DNA from: Verrucomicrobiaceae bacterium
GTDB lineage: Bacteria; Verrucomicrobiota; Verrucomicrobiia; Verrucomicrobiales; Verrucomicrobiaceae
Assembly: GCA_015075365.1 (NCBI GenBank)
Contig: JABTUN010000001.1
Location: 124,001-188,000, forward strand
Length of the DNA stretch: 64,000 bases
Direction: 5' to 3'
Part shown: piece by piece, positions 2,926 through 40,510 of the stretch
How the letters are laid out: each line of letters begins with the position of its first letter
How positions within the stretch are numbered: position 1 is the stretch's first letter
The notes under the pieces: generated by a model
The model's input: only the letters and a program-made list of their open reading frames with translations
The model's database searches: none
Told to the model about the DNA's origin: nothing
Made by a program: the position numbers and the translations under genes

Positions 2926-5900
2926 ATGAAAAGGAACAAGCACACTCTCCTGGCCGCGCTCGCGCTGCTGCTCCCCGCCGCGGCGCAGGCGCAGCTCGGC
3001 ACCGCCACCGTCAACGCCAGTGGAAACTGGAACAGCGTTGGCACCTGGAGCAGCACGCCGGGCGGCTTTGCCCCGATCAACGGGCAGAACGGCCAGAACT
3101 GGAACGCCATCATCAACAACGGCAGCCGTACGGTGACGGTGAATGCCGGCACGGTGCTCGAAGGGCTGAACTTCAGCGCCGGTGTCATCAACGGGACCAG
3201 CACGCTCACCCTGAACGCCGCCAGCACTTGGAGCGGAGGTAACTTCACCGACAGCGGTATCACCCATTTCAATGGTGGTGTGGCGATCACGGCGAACGGC
3301 CAGTCGATCACCTCCCGCACGGTCAACTTGGGAGGCTCTTCCACCATCGGGGACGGCAGCATCGCCATGCATGTCGGGACGCTCGCCAACAACGGCGTTT
3401 TCAGCATCACGAACGTGACAGGGCTGACTGTTTCCCACTCGGGCTTCGGTGGCACATGGTCCAACACAGGGACGATCAACAAAGGCGGCGCGGGTGCCAC
3501 GACCCTTTCAAGCGTTAGCTTTAACAACACAAGCACCGGCATCGTGAATGTGAACGAGGGAATGATCAACGTGGCCTATCAAGGCAACGGCGCAGGTGGT
3601 GGCACGTCCACCGGCACCTTCAACATCGCTTCCGGAGCCGAATTCCGTGTCAGCGGTGCCACTTATCACATGAATGCAGGCGTTCAGGTCCACGGCAGTG
3701 GCGCATTCACCACCGCCGGAGGGACTGTGAACTTCAATGGATCGAGTATTAGCAACACGGGCAATTTTGCACTGACCGGTGGCACCATGGCAGCCACCAG
3801 CGGTGCCACACTCCAAACCAGCGGTACCATGACAATGAGTGGCGGACTGATGGACGGCCCTGGGACGGCGAGCTTCGGCGGTGCGAGCACCTGGACGGGT
3901 GGGAACTTTGGAGGCACGGGCATCACCAACTTCAATGGTGGCGTGGCGATCACGGCGAGCGGGCAGTTGATCACGTCACGCACGGTGAACCTGGGGGGCA
4001 GTTCGACGATTGGGGACGGCAGCATCGCCATGCATGTCGGGACGCTCGCCAACAACGGCGTTTTCAGCATCACGAACGTGACAGGGCTGACCGTTTCTCA
4101 CTCGGGCTTCGGTGGCACATGGTCCAACACGGGAACGATCAACAAAGGCGGCGCGGGCACCACCACCTTTTCAAGCGTGAGCTTCAACAACCCAAGCACC
4201 GGCATCGTGAATGTGAACGAAGGAATGATCAACGTGGCCTATCAAGGCAACGGCGCGGGCGGAGGCACGGCCGCCGGCACCTTCAACATCGCCTCCGGAG
4301 CCGAATTCCGCGTCAGCGGTCCGAGCTACACGATGAACGCGGGCGTGCAGGTGAACGGCGCGGGTGTTTTTAACATGACAGGCGGCACCACGACCTTCAA
4401 CGGCACCAGCACCGGCAGTACAGGGAACCTCAGCATGACGGGAGGCACGGTCGAAGTCACCAGCGGCTCGAATTTTGCCACGTCGGGTAGCTTCAATGGA
4501 ACCGGCGGAACGAGGCAAGGAACCGGCACCCTCACGTTCGGAGGGGCCAGCACATGGTCGGGCGGAAACATGGGCAATACCGCTGGCTCGTCGGGCGGGA
4601 CCACTAATTTCAATGGCGGCGTGGCCATCACCGCCAACGGTCAATACATCAACGCCAGCACGGGCATTGTGAACATGTATGGGAACTCCAGCATCGGCTC
4701 CGGGACACTGGCATTCCACGCCAGCGGGACGCTGGCAAATCACGGGACGTTCGATGTGACCACCAGCAGTGCCCTGAATTTTTCCAGCCTGGGCTTCGGC
4801 GGTGCGGTCAGCAATGATGGCACCATCAATAAATCGGGAGCGGCCACGGCCACCTTTGGAGTAATCTTCAACAACACCAGCCCCGGCATAGTGAATGTCA
4901 ATGAAGGTATCGTGGCATCCAGCGCTGGAGGCACCTCCAATGGCACCTTTGACATTGATTCCGGCACCGAGTTTCGCATCACCGGCGGCAACTACACGAT
5001 GAACGCGGGCGTGCAGGTGAACGGCGCGGGTGTTTTTAACATGGCGGGCGGCACCACGACCTTCAACGGCACCAGCACCGGCAGCACGGGAAACCTGGGC
5101 ATGACGGGAGGCACGGTGACTTTTGCCAGCGGTGCCAGTTTCACCACGTCAGGCGGGTTCCAGGGAGCCAGCGGCATGCTCAACGGTTCTGGAACATCAA
5201 CCTTCAATGGTGCGAGCACCTGGACAGGAGGCAATTTCGAGGGCGGCGTGACCAACATGACCGGCGGTGTCGCGATCACAGGCAACAACCAGGTGCTGAG
5301 GAACCATACGCTGACGATTGGCGGGACTTCCACCATCGGATCGGGATTGCTGGGGTTTTATGCCGGAGGCAAGCTCATCAACCATGGCAGCTTCAACATC
5401 AACAACGCAAGCTCCCTGGACTTTGCCGATCATGGTTTCGGAAACCATCAATTCACCAACTCCATCACAGGGGTGGTCAACAAAAGCGGTGCCGGCGCGG
5501 CGGGCTTTTCCTCCGCTTTCAGCGTGTTCTCCAACGCAGGCACGATCAACGTCAACGAGGGGTCCTTCACGACCTATGGGGGCGTCACCCAGCACAGCGG
5601 CACGACGCTGACCGGTGGCACCTGGAACGTCAGAAATGGGGCGACGCTCACCTTCAACACGGGCAGCAACCTCACCACCATCGGCACCAATGCGAGCGTG
5701 ACGCTCGACGGCGCGGCCTCGACCTTCAACCGCATCCCGGTCACGGCCTCCACGCTGACGACCAACCAAGGCAGCTTCACGCTGAAGAACGACCGGGACA
5801 TCACCACCGCGAATGCCTTCACCAACAGCGGCACGGTGAGCGTGCAGGACAGTGCCACCACCCTCAAGATCGGTGCCACGGGGAACCTGGCCTACACGCA

Positions 5901-35687: not shown

Positions 35688-36956
35688 TCAAACGACCACC
35701 TGGGGTTCCAGCATGCGAATTTTTGCCTTGGCGGCTTCCAAACTAGAAACCTCCCCCGTGCTGACCAGCCAGTGCGCCGCGATGAGAGCGGAGCGCTGCA
35801 AGCCGAGCTGGCAGTGCAGAAAGACGCGACGTCCCGCATCGTGTTGCTCACGCATGAGGTTCAGAGCGGCGCGGATGTGCTCCGGTTGAAGCGGCACGAG
35901 GTCGAGCAGCGGCAGGTTGTGGTAATGTGCGTGCTCGCGGAAGGCCACGGGCGCGTTCGACTCGGCGGTGAGGTCGATCACGGCGAGATCACCGCCTTGG
36001 GTGAGTTCGGCGGCTTCGCGCTTGGTGACCTTGCGGCTGAAAAAGACACCGGGAGTGACTTCGTGCCATCCTGGGCATCGCTTGAGCCATTTCTTCTGAA
36101 TCTGAGCCGTGGCGATGAGCACGGGCAGCAGGCACCATTCAGCGGAGGGTGAGAGTGTGCCGTTTTCCTTGCCCAGCAGGCGCGAGAGGCCGGTGGAGTA
36201 GGCGAGCGCCATGATGCCGCAGGCCACGGCGGGCCAGACGAAGATCACCGAGACAAAACTGAGCGCCGCGCATGCCGCCGCGCCGAGGCCGTAGCGCTTC
36301 GCGTATTTCGCGGAGGGATTGCGCGTGCCCAGTTGGCGTGGATCGGGGATCAGCGCCGCGATGGCCCAGCCCATGACGAAACCGGCCGCCACATCGACGA
36401 GGTGATGCTGCCACACGAGCAATGTCGAGAGACCGATGAGGATGAACCACACCTTGGTGGCCGTGCGCAACCAGCCGGTGAGATGCGCGCCGTAAAACAC
36501 CCACACGATCGAGCGCAGGCTGATGTGCAGGGAGGGCGCGAGGTTGTAGGGCTGGTCGTTGAAGTAGAGCGCGTGAAACAGCGGCGCGGTCCAGCCGCTC
36601 GGCTCGGGTCGCGGCAGACCGAGCTTGAGCGGGAAGAGCAGGAAAAAAAGCCCGCTGCCCACCGTGACGGCGATGAGGCGCTTCGTGAGCAGATTCAGCT
36701 CCACCTTGCTGCCGCAGAGGAAGAACGCGCCGCAGAAAAACAGGTCGAGCGACCAATACGGCACGACGAGTTCCTTCACGAAAGGGATGTGGCGCTCCCA
36801 TTCAAACATCAGCGTCGGCACATCACCGCGTGTGGCGGTGAACTGGTTGCAGCCGCTGTAAACGATCACAAACGTCGCTCCCGCGAGCGCGAGCCGCCAG
36901 ATCGCTGGCCAGAGCAGACCGGGTTCGCGTTTATGAGAGAGAGAAGAGGCAGGCAT
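35688..36956 (-). CDS. YnbD-like PAP2 plus dual-specificity phosphatase fusion
   Basis: A 422-aa protein. Residues ~15-270 hold about seven membrane segments with PAP2 motifs: PRPEPSGW, NLAPSLHISL and WQHHLVDVAAGFVMG. The C-terminal ~150 residues form a cytoplasmic dual-specificity phosphatase with the P-loop HCQLGLQRSAL (CX5R) after NLPLLDL. The same fusion is E. coli YnbD. Both parts hydrolyse phosphate esters, probably of lipid or isoprenoid and polyol substrates. The next gene cluster on this strand includes a YnbC homologue, though an ATPase gene sits between. ynbA and ynbB equivalents are not in the window. Confidence 0.82.
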   Translation of the reverse strand: MPASSLSHKREPGLLWPAIWRLALAGATFVIVYSGCNQFTATRGDVPTLMFEWERHIPFVKELVVPYWSLDLFFCGAFFLCGSKVELNLLTKRLIAVTVGSGLFFLLFPLKLGLPRPEPSGWTAPLFHALYFNDQPYNLAPSLHISLRSIVWVFYGAHLTGWLRTATKVWFILIGLSTLLVWQHHLVDVAAGFVMGWAIAALIPDPRQLGTRNPSAKYAKRYGLGAAACAALSFVSVIFVWPAVACGIMALAYSTGLSRLLGKENGTLSPSAEWCLLPVLIATAQIQKKWLKRCPGWHEVTPGVFFSRKVTKREAAELTQGGDLAVIDLTAESNAPVAFREHAHYHNLPLLDLVPLQPEHIRAALNLMREQHDAGRRVFLHCQLGLQRSALIAAHWLVSTGEVSSLEAAKAKIRMLEPQVVV

Positions 36957-36960
36957 GGGG

Positions 36961-38412
36961 CTATTTCGTCGTCAGCAGTTTCTCCGCAGGCACGAGGAAG
37001 TCGAAGTCGTCGCGCCCGTCGATCTCGGGATCGAGTTCGCCGCAGTAGATGAGGCCGGTGCGGATGGACTGGCCTTTCGGCAGCTTCAGACGTCGCACTT
37101 TTTCACGCACCTCATCGACGATGCTGAGGGCGATGCGCTTGCGGAATTTGATCTCGAAGACGTAGAGGCTGCGTCGCGTGCGGATGAGCAGGTCGATCTG
37201 GCAGCCCTGGCGGCGCAGCGTCTGCTTTTGCATGTAGGGCCCGGCGTTGAGCACGAGTTTCCGGTCGAGGCCAATGCGGGCGAGCAGCAGGCCGAGGTTG
37301 GCATGCACGAGGTTTTCGAACTGGAGGCCCATGATCGTGTCCCAGGCGTCCAGGGACTCCAGCGCGGTGTTTTTCAGCAGTCCCTTCGTGATGCGGGTCT
37401 TCACGGGATCGACATACTTGAGGTAAAAGCGCAGGTAGTTGTCGGAAAGGCGAAAGCGGGCATCACGCGGCCTGCTGCGGCCCGTTTCCGCTTCGAAGGG
37501 GATGTCGCGGGCGATGAAGCCCGCCTGCTCCAGTTCGGTGAGTGCGGCGCTGAGGCTGCCGCCGCGGGCGCGGTCGAGTTCGGCGCTGATCTGGTCCACG
37601 CTGCGTGATCCGGACACCAGCGTGCGCACGATCTCGCGATACGTCTCCGCCTTCCGCGTGAAGATGTCGTGGAAGATGCTGTCGAACTCGCTGAAGAGCA
37701 TCCCGGAGGCATTGAAGCACAAGTCGGCGATGTTTTGCTCCGCCGTGCGGGCGGGATTGATCTCCTCCAGGTAGCGCGGCACACCGCCAGTGACGGAGAG
37801 CAGGCGCAGCTTTTCCGCCGCGCTGATGCGCTCGCCGCGTTTGCCCCAAAACTGCACGCATTCCGGCAGCGCCAGGGGCCCCAGCCGGAACTGCCACGAG
37901 CAGCGGCCGACGAATCCGGTGTTGTTGAGGATGTTTTGCTCGATCCACGATGAAACGCTGCCGCAGAGCACGACGACGAGGCGCTGGCGCTTGGAGAAAT
38001 GCGCGTCCCAGGCGTTTTTCAGATGTCCGGCGAAGTCCGCATCTCCCGCGGCCATCCACGAAATCTCATCGAGCAACAAGACGACCGTTCCGCGGGCCGG
38101 AAGCATGCTGGCGAGGAGCTGGAAGGCGGTGGGCCAGCCATCGAGCGGAACTTTGGGGGCCTTCGTTTGCTTCGCGAGCTGATCCGCAAACGCATCGAGC
38201 TGCACCTGACGCGTCATGTCTTCTCGCGGAGGCAGCCCCATGAAGCTGATGAAGTGATCCGCCTCCTGCGCACACTCGGCCAGAAAACGGCTCTTTCCGA
38301 TGCGCCGCCGCCCCTGGCAGGTGACGAGCGAGGCGGTCTTCTTTTGCAGAAGCCGCTGGAATTCCTCACGCTCCTCCCCGCGTCCGATGTAGCCGTCTGA
38401 GATGGTGCTCAT
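36961..38412 (-). CDS. AAA ATPase with C-terminal nuclease-like domain (DUF234-type)
   Basis: A 483-aa protein. Residues ~10-220 are an archaeal-type AAA ATPase: Walker A GRRRIGKSRF, Walker B VVLLLDEISWM and the sensor region VVLCGSVSSWIEQNIL. A winged helix follows (around 290-340), then a C-terminal domain with the PD-(D/E)XK-like pattern QIDLLIRTRRSLYVFEIKF (Asp, then ExK). The start at 38412 (MSTISDGYIGRGEEREEF) is the usual one, but the frame is open further upstream through the in-frame palindromic array 38411-38571. These ATPases are scattered among bacteria and archaea and their roles are unclear. The gene splits the YnbC/YnbD pair and looks inserted. Confidence 0.8.
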   Translation of the reverse strand: MSTISDGYIGRGEEREEFQRLLQKKTASLVTCQGRRRIGKSRFLAECAQEADHFISFMGLPPREDMTRQVQLDAFADQLAKQTKAPKVPLDGWPTAFQLLASMLPARGTVVLLLDEISWMAAGDADFAGHLKNAWDAHFSKRQRLVVVLCGSVSSWIEQNILNNTGFVGRCSWQFRLGPLALPECVQFWGKRGERISAAEKLRLLSVTGGVPRYLEEINPARTAEQNIADLCFNASGMLFSEFDSIFHDIFTRKAETYREIVRTLVSGSRSVDQISAELDRARGGSLSAALTELEQAGFIARDIPFEAETGRSRPRDARFRLSDNYLRFYLKYVDPVKTRITKGLLKNTALESLDAWDTIMGLQFENLVHANLGLLLARIGLDRKLVLNAGPYMQKQTLRRQGCQIDLLIRTRRSLYVFEIKFRKRIALSIVDEVREKVRRLKLPKGQSIRTGLIYCGELDPEIDGRDDFDFLVPAEKLLTTK

Positions 38413-38571
38413 GTCGATTTCGTGCCTGAAAGTGGCGGCCAATGTCTGGCACCAAATCGACATGATGTCAATTTCGTGCCTGGAATTCTCAGAAAAGTTT
38501 AGGCACCAAATCGACATGGTGTCGTTTTCGTGCCAGCCGGAAGTGCATCTTTTCGGGCACGAAAATGACCG
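38411..38571. repeat. Three tandem 54-bp palindromic repeats at the ATPase start
   Basis: Arms at 38411-38426/38448-38463, 38465-38480/38502-38517 and 38519-38534/38556-38571 pair closely (for example ATGTCGATTTCGTGCC with GGCACCAAATCGACAT). Loop centres of about 21 bases differ between units. Spacing is exactly 54 (18 codons). The ATPase start codon is formed at the edge of the first unit, and both strands stay open through the array, giving peptide repeats (MSIWC on minus, MSISC on plus, each ending RHxID). Confidence 0.88.
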
Positions 38572-38586
38572 GGTTCACGGTTTGCC

Positions 38587-40314
38587 TCAAAGCGCGGGCT
38601 TGCGGGCGATGCTGACGGTGAAAATGCCGAAGTCGTCGATCCACTGCTTCTCTTTCTTGAAACCGGCCTGCTCGACGAGCGCGTCCATCTCGCCCTGCGG
38701 GCGGCGGCGCATGACCCAGTATTGGCCGTCGCGGTTCGTCAGCGTGCGGGCGATCATTTCGACCTGCGGATGCCAGGGCTGGCCGGTGTAGATGAGCCAG
38801 CCGCCGGGATTCACCGCGCTGAAGAGGCCGCGCAGCGAGCGCTGGAGGCGTTCATTGTCGGGAAAAAGTTCATACAGGCCGGAAACGACGCCGATGGACG
38901 GCTTCGGCTCCACGCTGGCGAGCGATGACTCGTCGAAGGCATCGCCTCGCACATGCGTAATGCGATCCGTGAGTCCCATCTGCTGCGCCGTGGCGCGGCC
39001 GGTGGCCAGCGCGGACTCGCTCCAGTCGCGGCACAGAATTTTCAAATCAGGCTCGTCGAGCACATCGAGCAGGTAACGTCCCGCGCCGCCGGCGATGTCC
39101 ATGAGCTGAAGCGGCATGCCGGACTCGCGGATTTGCTTCAAAGCCCAGCGCAGCGCCTGATTCATGCACGCGCGGCGCTGGCGGATGCCGCGCCAGCCGA
39201 TGGCGTTGATGTAAAAGTAGTCGATGACCTTGCCGAGCAGCAGATTGCCTCGCGCTTTGTTTTCATAGACGTAGTCGAGCGACTCACCGGAGTCGAAACC
39301 GGTCGCGTGGCCGATGCGGATGCCCTGGCTGAGCCTTCCGAGCGTGCCGAGGCTGGCGCGTTGCAGGATGAACGAGAGTCCTTTGAGCGACGGCGAGGGC
39401 AGAGGCTTCTTCAGGTCGGCAAATTCCGCGTTTGTGGCCGGATGGCTCAAATCGGCCTCCAGTCGAGGCGGTGTGAAATTCGCGAGGCAGCGCTCCGCGA
39501 AGCGTTTGATGGCTCCGCAGACCTCGTCGCGGCACAAATCGTGAAAAATGGCATGGCGTGCGCCTTTGAGCGTGAGATGCGTTTTTTGCTCGCAGCCGTA
39601 GTTGGTGTAGAGCGCGTCGATGGCGTGCTTTTTGACGACTTTGTCCGCGCCGGCCGAAAAGAGCAGCAGCGGACGGTCCATGACCTCGGCGTCGCTGATG
39701 ACGCGTTGCGCGGAGTCGAAGAGATCGACGAGAATCTTCGCGGAGATGTCTTTGGAGATCGTTTTGTCCGCGTCGTAGGCCGCGGCGGCGCTCAGATCAC
39801 GCGTGAGCCAGCTTCCGCGCACGTAGCTCTTGATGGTGGCGTCTGCTTTGAGCTTCTGCATCGCCCGGATGCTCGTGAGAGCGCCGGGGACGATCAAATT
39901 CACCTCCAGCGCCGGCGTGGCGAGCACGAGACCGGCGATGCGCGGCGCGAAATCATGCACCCACGTCGCCGCGATGACCGCGCCGACACTGTGCGCCACC
40001 ACCACGGTGCGCTCCGGCACGAGGCCGTGCGTTTTTTGCAGGTGATGGAAAAACGTGTCGAGGTCCCGCACATACTCCATGAAGCCCGCTGCATGGCCGC
40101 GTCGCCCGGGCGACTGGCCATGGCCGCGGGCTTCCCACGCATAGATCGCCGTGTCCGGCATGGCGAGCGAGGGCACGACGGTGTCCCAGCGGTCCGCGTG
40201 CTCGTGACCGCGATGCAGCAGCACGAGCGCCTTGGAGGCCCCCTGCACGTTCCACGTTTTGTAATGCAGCGCGAGACCGTCGTCGGTGGTGAATTGGAGG
40301 CGTTCGGAGTTCAT
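38587..40314 (-). CDS. YnbC-like bifunctional alpha/beta hydrolase and methyltransferase
   Basis: A 575-aa fusion. Residues ~1-290 are an alpha/beta hydrolase (LVLLHRGHEHADRWDTV, nucleophile elbow VVAHSVGAV, ARHAIFHD catalytic His). The C-terminal ~270 residues are a SAM-dependent methyltransferase (motif I LMDIAGGAGRYLLD, then WSESALATGRATAQQM). The same architecture is E. coli YnbC, found with YnbA, B and D. Lipid or phospholipid-like substrates are likely but unproven. The start at 40314 gives MNSERLQFTTDDG. Its 3' end is followed by the palindromic array and the ATPase gene. Confidence 0.85.
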   Translation of the reverse strand: MNSERLQFTTDDGLALHYKTWNVQGASKALVLLHRGHEHADRWDTVVPSLAMPDTAIYAWEARGHGQSPGRRGHAAGFMEYVRDLDTFFHHLQKTHGLVPERTVVVAHSVGAVIAATWVHDFAPRIAGLVLATPALEVNLIVPGALTSIRAMQKLKADATIKSYVRGSWLTRDLSAAAAYDADKTISKDISAKILVDLFDSAQRVISDAEVMDRPLLLFSAGADKVVKKHAIDALYTNYGCEQKTHLTLKGARHAIFHDLCRDEVCGAIKRFAERCLANFTPPRLEADLSHPATNAEFADLKKPLPSPSLKGLSFILQRASLGTLGRLSQGIRIGHATGFDSGESLDYVYENKARGNLLLGKVIDYFYINAIGWRGIRQRRACMNQALRWALKQIRESGMPLQLMDIAGGAGRYLLDVLDEPDLKILCRDWSESALATGRATAQQMGLTDRITHVRGDAFDESSLASVEPKPSIGVVSGLYELFPDNERLQRSLRGLFSAVNPGGWLIYTGQPWHPQVEMIARTLTNRDGQYWVMRRRPQGEMDALVEQAGFKKEKQWIDDFGIFTVSIARKPAL

Positions 40315-40510
40315 GATGGCGGATGCTACGCGGATCGCGTGCGCCTTGCCAGATGGTTTTAAACATGCCTGCATCGAGAGAACCGATGGCGCAGTGTGCG
40401 TCCACTCGGAGATTGACGTCTGTATGGTGACTTATAGCTTCCCCACGACGCCCGCCATCGTCGGATTCAAGACTGCCGGGTCGCAGTTTAAATGCGACAC
40501 GCTTATCATC

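Follow-up and report, generated by a model that had tools for sequence, protein, structure and literature searches.

The three palindromic repeats at 38411-38571 and the ATPase gene that they adjoin form, as judged by sequence comparison, one horizontally mobile unit that is gained and lost together and has sharp common edges. We favour, with moderate confidence, a reading in which the palindromes are the putative cognate site of the encoded protein, lie over a likely promoter and, in some lineages, mark the ends of the unit. Coordinates below refer to the window, that is, the whole 64,000-nucleotide stretch of DNA that was analysed.

35688..36956, minus strand: YnbD-like gene (PAP2 plus dual-specificity phosphatase), right flank of the insertion
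36917..36929, minus strand: right copy of a 13-bp direct repeat, CGCGAACCCGGTC, native ynbD sequence
36961..38412, minus strand: 483-aa AAA+ ATPase with winged helix and C-terminal PD-(D/E)XK domain (Pfam ATPase_2; PADLOC PDC-S27)
38411..38463, minus strand: palindromic unit 3 (gene-proximal), with 16-bp arms and a 21-nt centre; the ATPase start codon is partly made by the edge of this unit
38465..38517, minus strand: palindromic unit 2 (middle)
38466..38471, minus strand: TTGACA, -35-like, in the 3' arm of unit 2
38519..38571, minus strand: palindromic unit 1 (distal), the most degenerate; the mobile unit ends on the left at the outer edge of this palindrome
38567..38579, minus strand: left copy of the 13-bp direct repeat, CGTGAACCCGGTC, at the array edge; possible target-site duplication
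38587..40374, minus strand: YnbC-like gene (alpha/beta hydrolase plus methyltransferase), left flank of the insertion

The array consists of three 53-bp palindromes with one spacer base each, hence an exact 54-bp period. This spacing is as the first-pass annotation had described it; the 16-bp arms, called "near-perfect" in the same description, are not perfect, 13-15 of the 16 positions being paired. When the whole window was scanned for three palindromes at a 54-bp period, position 38411 scored highest with 42 of its 48 arm pairs formed; the best place outside the array region reached 27. The arm ATGTCGATTTCGTGCC, with at most three mismatches, was matched five times in the window, always inside the array (0.66 matches expected). 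Arm position 11 (38421 and its equivalents) is mismatched in 24 of 38 units, often as G-G or C-C, and pairing bases at this position also occur in some units. The ATG of the ATPase (38412-38410, minus strand) takes its AT from the edge of the proximal unit, and the earlier proposal that the unit edge builds the start codon was therefore borne out. So was the naming of the two flanking genes, whose domain content (hydrolase and methyltransferase on one side, PAP2 and dual-specificity phosphatase on the other) agrees with YnbC-like and YnbD-like proteins.

The array had also been described as running in frame with the ATPase and giving 18-residue peptide repeats. The frame is indeed open in the window genome, and 54 bp make 18 codons, as would be expected if the array encoded a repeat peptide at the N-terminus of the ATPase. 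The frame is, however, lost among the relatives: at seven homologous loci (L014, L018, L019, L020, L032, L033 and L034) the array either contains a stop or is shifted out of the ATPase frame, and L019 has a unit that is short of one base. The open frame in the window is thus best taken as a coincidence; we rejected the coding repeat as a candidate and give it a negligible probability.

Homologues of the ATPase with 57-93% protein identity were found in a minority of same-genus genomes, Prosthecobacter and Brevifollis included. All 18 same-genus homologues inspected carry two to three 54-bp units directly 5' of the start codon. A covariance model built from one unit and run over 48 genomes of the genus gave matches in 14, with at most three array sites per genome. 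Each of these sites lies beside the ATPase gene or a decayed copy of it, bar one at a contig end, and we found no solo arrays of the window arm type in the 48 genomes beyond the decayed copies; many of these genomes are draft assemblies, in which an array may be hidden where a contig breaks in the repeat. The recurrence of the arm beside homologues of this ATPase, which had been proposed as a check, was thus observed, at remnants and once at a contig end as well. Homologues lacking the array, or arrays at random sites, had been named as evidence against a fused unit, and the outcome favours the fused unit.

We compared the insertion site of the window with that of its relatives. Seven host relatives lack both gene and array, and in these ynbC and ynbD are directly joined by an ATGA overlap; one of them carries a ynbC 98% identical to that of the host. 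When seven elements were aligned, the common sequence began at base 1 of the distal unit and ended with the stop codon, with mostly unalignable flanks (two of the seven occupy one common site). Thus, like an insertion sequence, the element is a discrete unit that a given site has or lacks, in the window some 1.6 kb long and made of the palindrome triplet and one gene. Since every close homologue has the array and the empty relatives have neither part, array and ORF are one mobile unit, and the claim that they arrived together holds. The 13-bp direct repeat at the window insertion matches at 12 of 13 positions between the left and right copies; no comparable repeat was seen at the other insertion sites. 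At another site, the full unit is present in some species, and others, the host genome among them, hold only fragments, made of about 1.5 units and the last 30-65 codons of the ATPase.

Two decayed copies (L012 1440-2731 and L041 400-1698) occupy the same site in two species with a similar layout, about 1.5 palindromic units being followed further on by the last 65 ATPase codons. In the L012 copy, an unrelated 284-aa gene on the opposite strand lies between the units and these codons. The Brevifollis element (L020 1374-1480) has two further palindromic units right behind the stop codon.

Within the array, the pattern of conservation points to control at the DNA level. Two subclades differ in their arm ends, GCC/GGC or GCT/AGC, with pairing preserved, and 44 cells changed on both sides of the arms, against 27.4 in shuffles (none of 500 shuffles reached this count). 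The proximal unit is the best conserved across homologues (p 0.006-0.01) and the outermost the least. All 18 same-genus arrays inspected have the motif TTGAC, mostly as the hexamer TTGACA, within the 3' arm of their penultimate unit; there it weakens an arm pair which the proximal unit retains. A sigma-70 promoter scan found no -10 box by consensus. Even so, because TTGAC is conserved and the proximal unit best conserved, a promoter inside the array is suggested, and with it control exerted on DNA. The alternative would be an RNA role, in which three hairpins of the 5' leader control translation or provide an RNA partner of the kind formed by the repeats of type III toxin-antitoxin systems. 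The tandem repeats do lie immediately 5' of the start codon with a hairpin edge at the ATG, the hairpin loops of the sister subfamily L039 (see below) keep a constant orientation relative to the ORF, and mismatched arm pairs on the sense strand are more often G-T than A-C (93 vs 63, weak counts), which is a hint of an RNA role. If TTGAC is a -35 box, however, the transcript would begin within unit 3 and so contain no complete hairpin; moreover, there is no Rfam match, and the protein is of the AAA+/PD-(D/E)XK kind, not a ToxN-type RNase as type III systems would demand. We consider an RNA role unlikely.

The protein belongs to the Pfam family ATPase_2 (36.7 bits, cut-off 33.2) and matches PADLOC PDC-S27 with an E of 4e-81; NCBIfam gave no match. 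Its Walker A and Walker B residues are invariant in the homologues, and the nuclease signature, D followed by E-x-K, is present, D407 and E420 being invariant and K422 nearly so among 27 homologues. The predicted structure (pLDDT 91.5) is closest to two archaeal ATPase_2 structures, PAB2304 (2qen, Z 21.6) and SSO1545 (2fna, Z 20.4), followed by NB-ARC and Orc1/Cdc6 proteins. The likeness to these two chains, each about 350 residues long, lies in the fold of the AAA+ and winged-helix region (Z 20-22): they cover residues 4-333 of the model and leave the C-terminal nuclease domain unmatched. That domain in turn resembles the nucleases EndoMS, Can2, Cdn1 and McrC (Z 8-10). Sequence profiles also matched TnsC (E 3e-9) and Card1. 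The encoded protein is probably an ATP-driven one that cuts DNA.

PDC-S27 has the same protein family and domain order, an ATPase fused to a PD-(D/E)XK nuclease, and is a candidate single-gene phage defence; the window ATPase is likewise a candidate. An archaeal survey put archaeal PDC-S27 systems at 3503 and bacterial ones at 4562, and most PDC candidates await experimental validation (PMC12988326). By term search, the same paper makes no mention of palindromes (PMC12988326), and the two papers found that contain both DUF234 and palindromes deal with unrelated subjects, going by title and abstract. An AAA+ winged-helix gene beside repeats that are diverse within a genome is also met in the haloarchaeal orc1/cdc6 genes with their origin recognition boxes, as outlined in PMC3528665. 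This arrangement, together with the likeness of the fold to Orc1/Cdc6, would fit an array that acts as a replicator or origin-like site for an initiator encoded alongside. Unlike the initiators, the window protein has a nuclease domain attached and its closest folds are ATPase_2 and NB-ARC; the window copy sits within an operon-like gene row, and we saw no sign of a replication function. An origin-like site is therefore very improbable.

Beyond the genus, different ATPase lineages carry different palindromes, as shown by the loci compared. The arm GGCACCAAATCAAC of the homologue on a Desulfosarcina plasmid (48% identity) matches Prosthecobacter arms without a difference over 14 bases, and a Chlamydiae homologue (43% identity) has related arms. 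A different palindrome, TTTGGCGGAAT, accompanies the Emticicia and Butyrivibrio homologues, ACCGCGG repeats accompany that of Wolbachia phage WO, and a haloarchaeal homologue has AAATCACGATT. The Wolbachia phage palindrome was not found in any other phage record. At the Chlamydiae locus L051 (3432-3981), two related arrays lie about 400 bp apart 5' of one gene.

A strong upstream palindrome was present in 68% of 62 dereplicated homologues and 19% of 57 control ORFs, and upstream direct repeats of 40-75 bp in 39% and 0%, respectively, the control ORFs having been chosen mechanically and being imperfect controls for a family-wide survey. With annotated genes as the control, the small sample gave a borderline difference (8/13 vs 10/31, p 0.07). 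On these sequence data, we regard the rule that a palindrome lies beside the gene as firm for the near family and as likely for the whole family. At the equivalent position, relatives of the gene have private palindromes, often of another sequence, so that a gene and its palindrome move as a pair. Over 40 loci, arm sequence correlated only weakly with protein similarity (rho 0.10, p 0.07), which argues for fast palindrome turnover; arm matches scoring at least 8 made up 2% of the pairs below 30% identity and 50% of those above 60%. Palindrome size and loop length vary widely across lineages.

One 3.9-Mb Verrucomicrobiota genome (G198) contains eleven paralogues of the ATPase (L194-L204). Most of the copies read show a private palindrome and two have no clear one; two copies could not be placed automatically. 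Among the copies read in this genome and in G141, the best pair reached 62% identity. Viral contigs gave no matches when searched with the window protein alone and 20 loci when searched with the family profile. One 85.7-kb viral contig has two different homologues (L140 and L142) with different palindromes, one of them bracketed by hairpins. A copy on a Rhodothermus plasmid (L085) lies downstream of the type III-A CRISPR gene csm5.

In the sister subfamily L039, palindromes lie at both ends of the gene. The hairpin GATTTTCTTCCTATAACG...CGTTATAGGAAGAAAATC abuts both the start and the stop codon, and in five genomes the distance between its two directly repeated copies is exactly 1452 bp. The order hairpin-ORF-hairpin was also found in G010, and the same bracketing in a separate lineage, that of L142. 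We compared full, solo and empty sites by BLAST. At one orthologous site, hairpin-ORF-hairpin is present in G067, G066, G015 and G026, G011 has a solo hairpin, and G031 and G028 are empty. At a second site, G010 and G057 have the element and G065 and G021 lack it, and a solo hairpin occupies a third place in G005. Some insertion edges of this type could not be placed to the base, the flanks having diverged. At the first of these sites, G068 (L218) has a solo hairpin with arms TTTTCAGCCTAT in place of TTTTCTTCCTAT, as if the palindrome specificity had been switched without the gene. These states show that the unit is gained or lost as a whole.

It could be argued that the chief role of the palindromes is to form the ends of a transposable element of a new kind, whose AAA+/nuclease protein recognises its hairpins and moves the unit, with the solo hairpins as excision scars or miniature derivatives. 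The directly oriented hairpins of the L039 type, of G010 and of L142, the full, solo and empty versions of one site with a second empty site, the profile match to the transposon ATPase TnsC and the two additional downstream units in Brevifollis all speak for it. Nevertheless, the full, solo and empty states fall short of proving transposition, because direct repeats that undergo ordinary recombination would likewise leave one hairpin behind. In addition, the window clade has no palindrome at its right end and its outermost unit is the least conserved, target duplication is inconsistent, no near-identical copies within a genome were found among the G198 and G141 copies read, and the Pfam matches of the ATPase include no transposase domain. 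A transposon in this sense is therefore doubtful.

Known systems with a single gene and its own palindromes differ in the protein. In a classical insertion sequence there is a recognisable transposase, absent here, where only a profile match to the TnsC-like ATPase is seen. The IS200/IS605 elements likewise have same-strand hairpins flanking a single ORF, and solo forms, as does L039; unlike them, the window system has no Y1 transposase (Pfam gives ATPase_2 and no Y1 HUH match), and in the window clade hairpins stand at one end only. RAYT genes also lie beside their own class of palindrome. RAYT is a Y1 (HUH) transposase, however, and REPs usually number more than 100 copies per genome, according to PMC2817692, whereas the window system is AAA+/nuclease, with palindromes almost only beside the gene and at most three array sites per genome. 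The array is no CRISPR array either: it has three units with variable arms, and there is no cas gene among the window neighbours examined. We entertain tentatively a new class of mobile elements without a conventional transposase, in which the AAA+/PD-(D/E)XK protein would recognise only its private hairpins, placed before its gene or on both sides of it, move or maintain the unit and exclude others of the same specificity. Such exclusion between units of the same specificity would explain why a genome may hold many paralogues with different hairpins.

Given the winged helix, the lineage-specific arms and the likely promoter in the array, it is simplest to suppose that the protein binds, and regulates itself through, its own palindromes. 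The encoded protein would recognise this putative site probably through its winged helix. With TTGAC in the middle unit, the array would cover the likely promoter, and its first job would probably be control by the protein of its own expression. Such control may restrain a dangerous predicted nuclease until the need arises, possibly on phage attack. In the sister lineages, where like hairpins stand at both gene ends and are able to remain alone, they may mark the ends of a moving unit. Among the three functions offered by the first-pass annotation, protein-binding operators fit best, recombination ends are plausible in the sister subfamily, and RNA hairpins are weak. Promoter control does not account for the hairpins that follow the gene or for those that stand alone, and the wide variation of palindrome size and loop is odd for a simple dimer operator.

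A cognate site beside the gene would give PDC-S27-type proteins a concrete target. Paralogues with private sites in one genome would be a natural set of orthogonal protein-DNA pairs and, if it is true that hairpins mark the ends of the unit, the gene would move without a known transposase.
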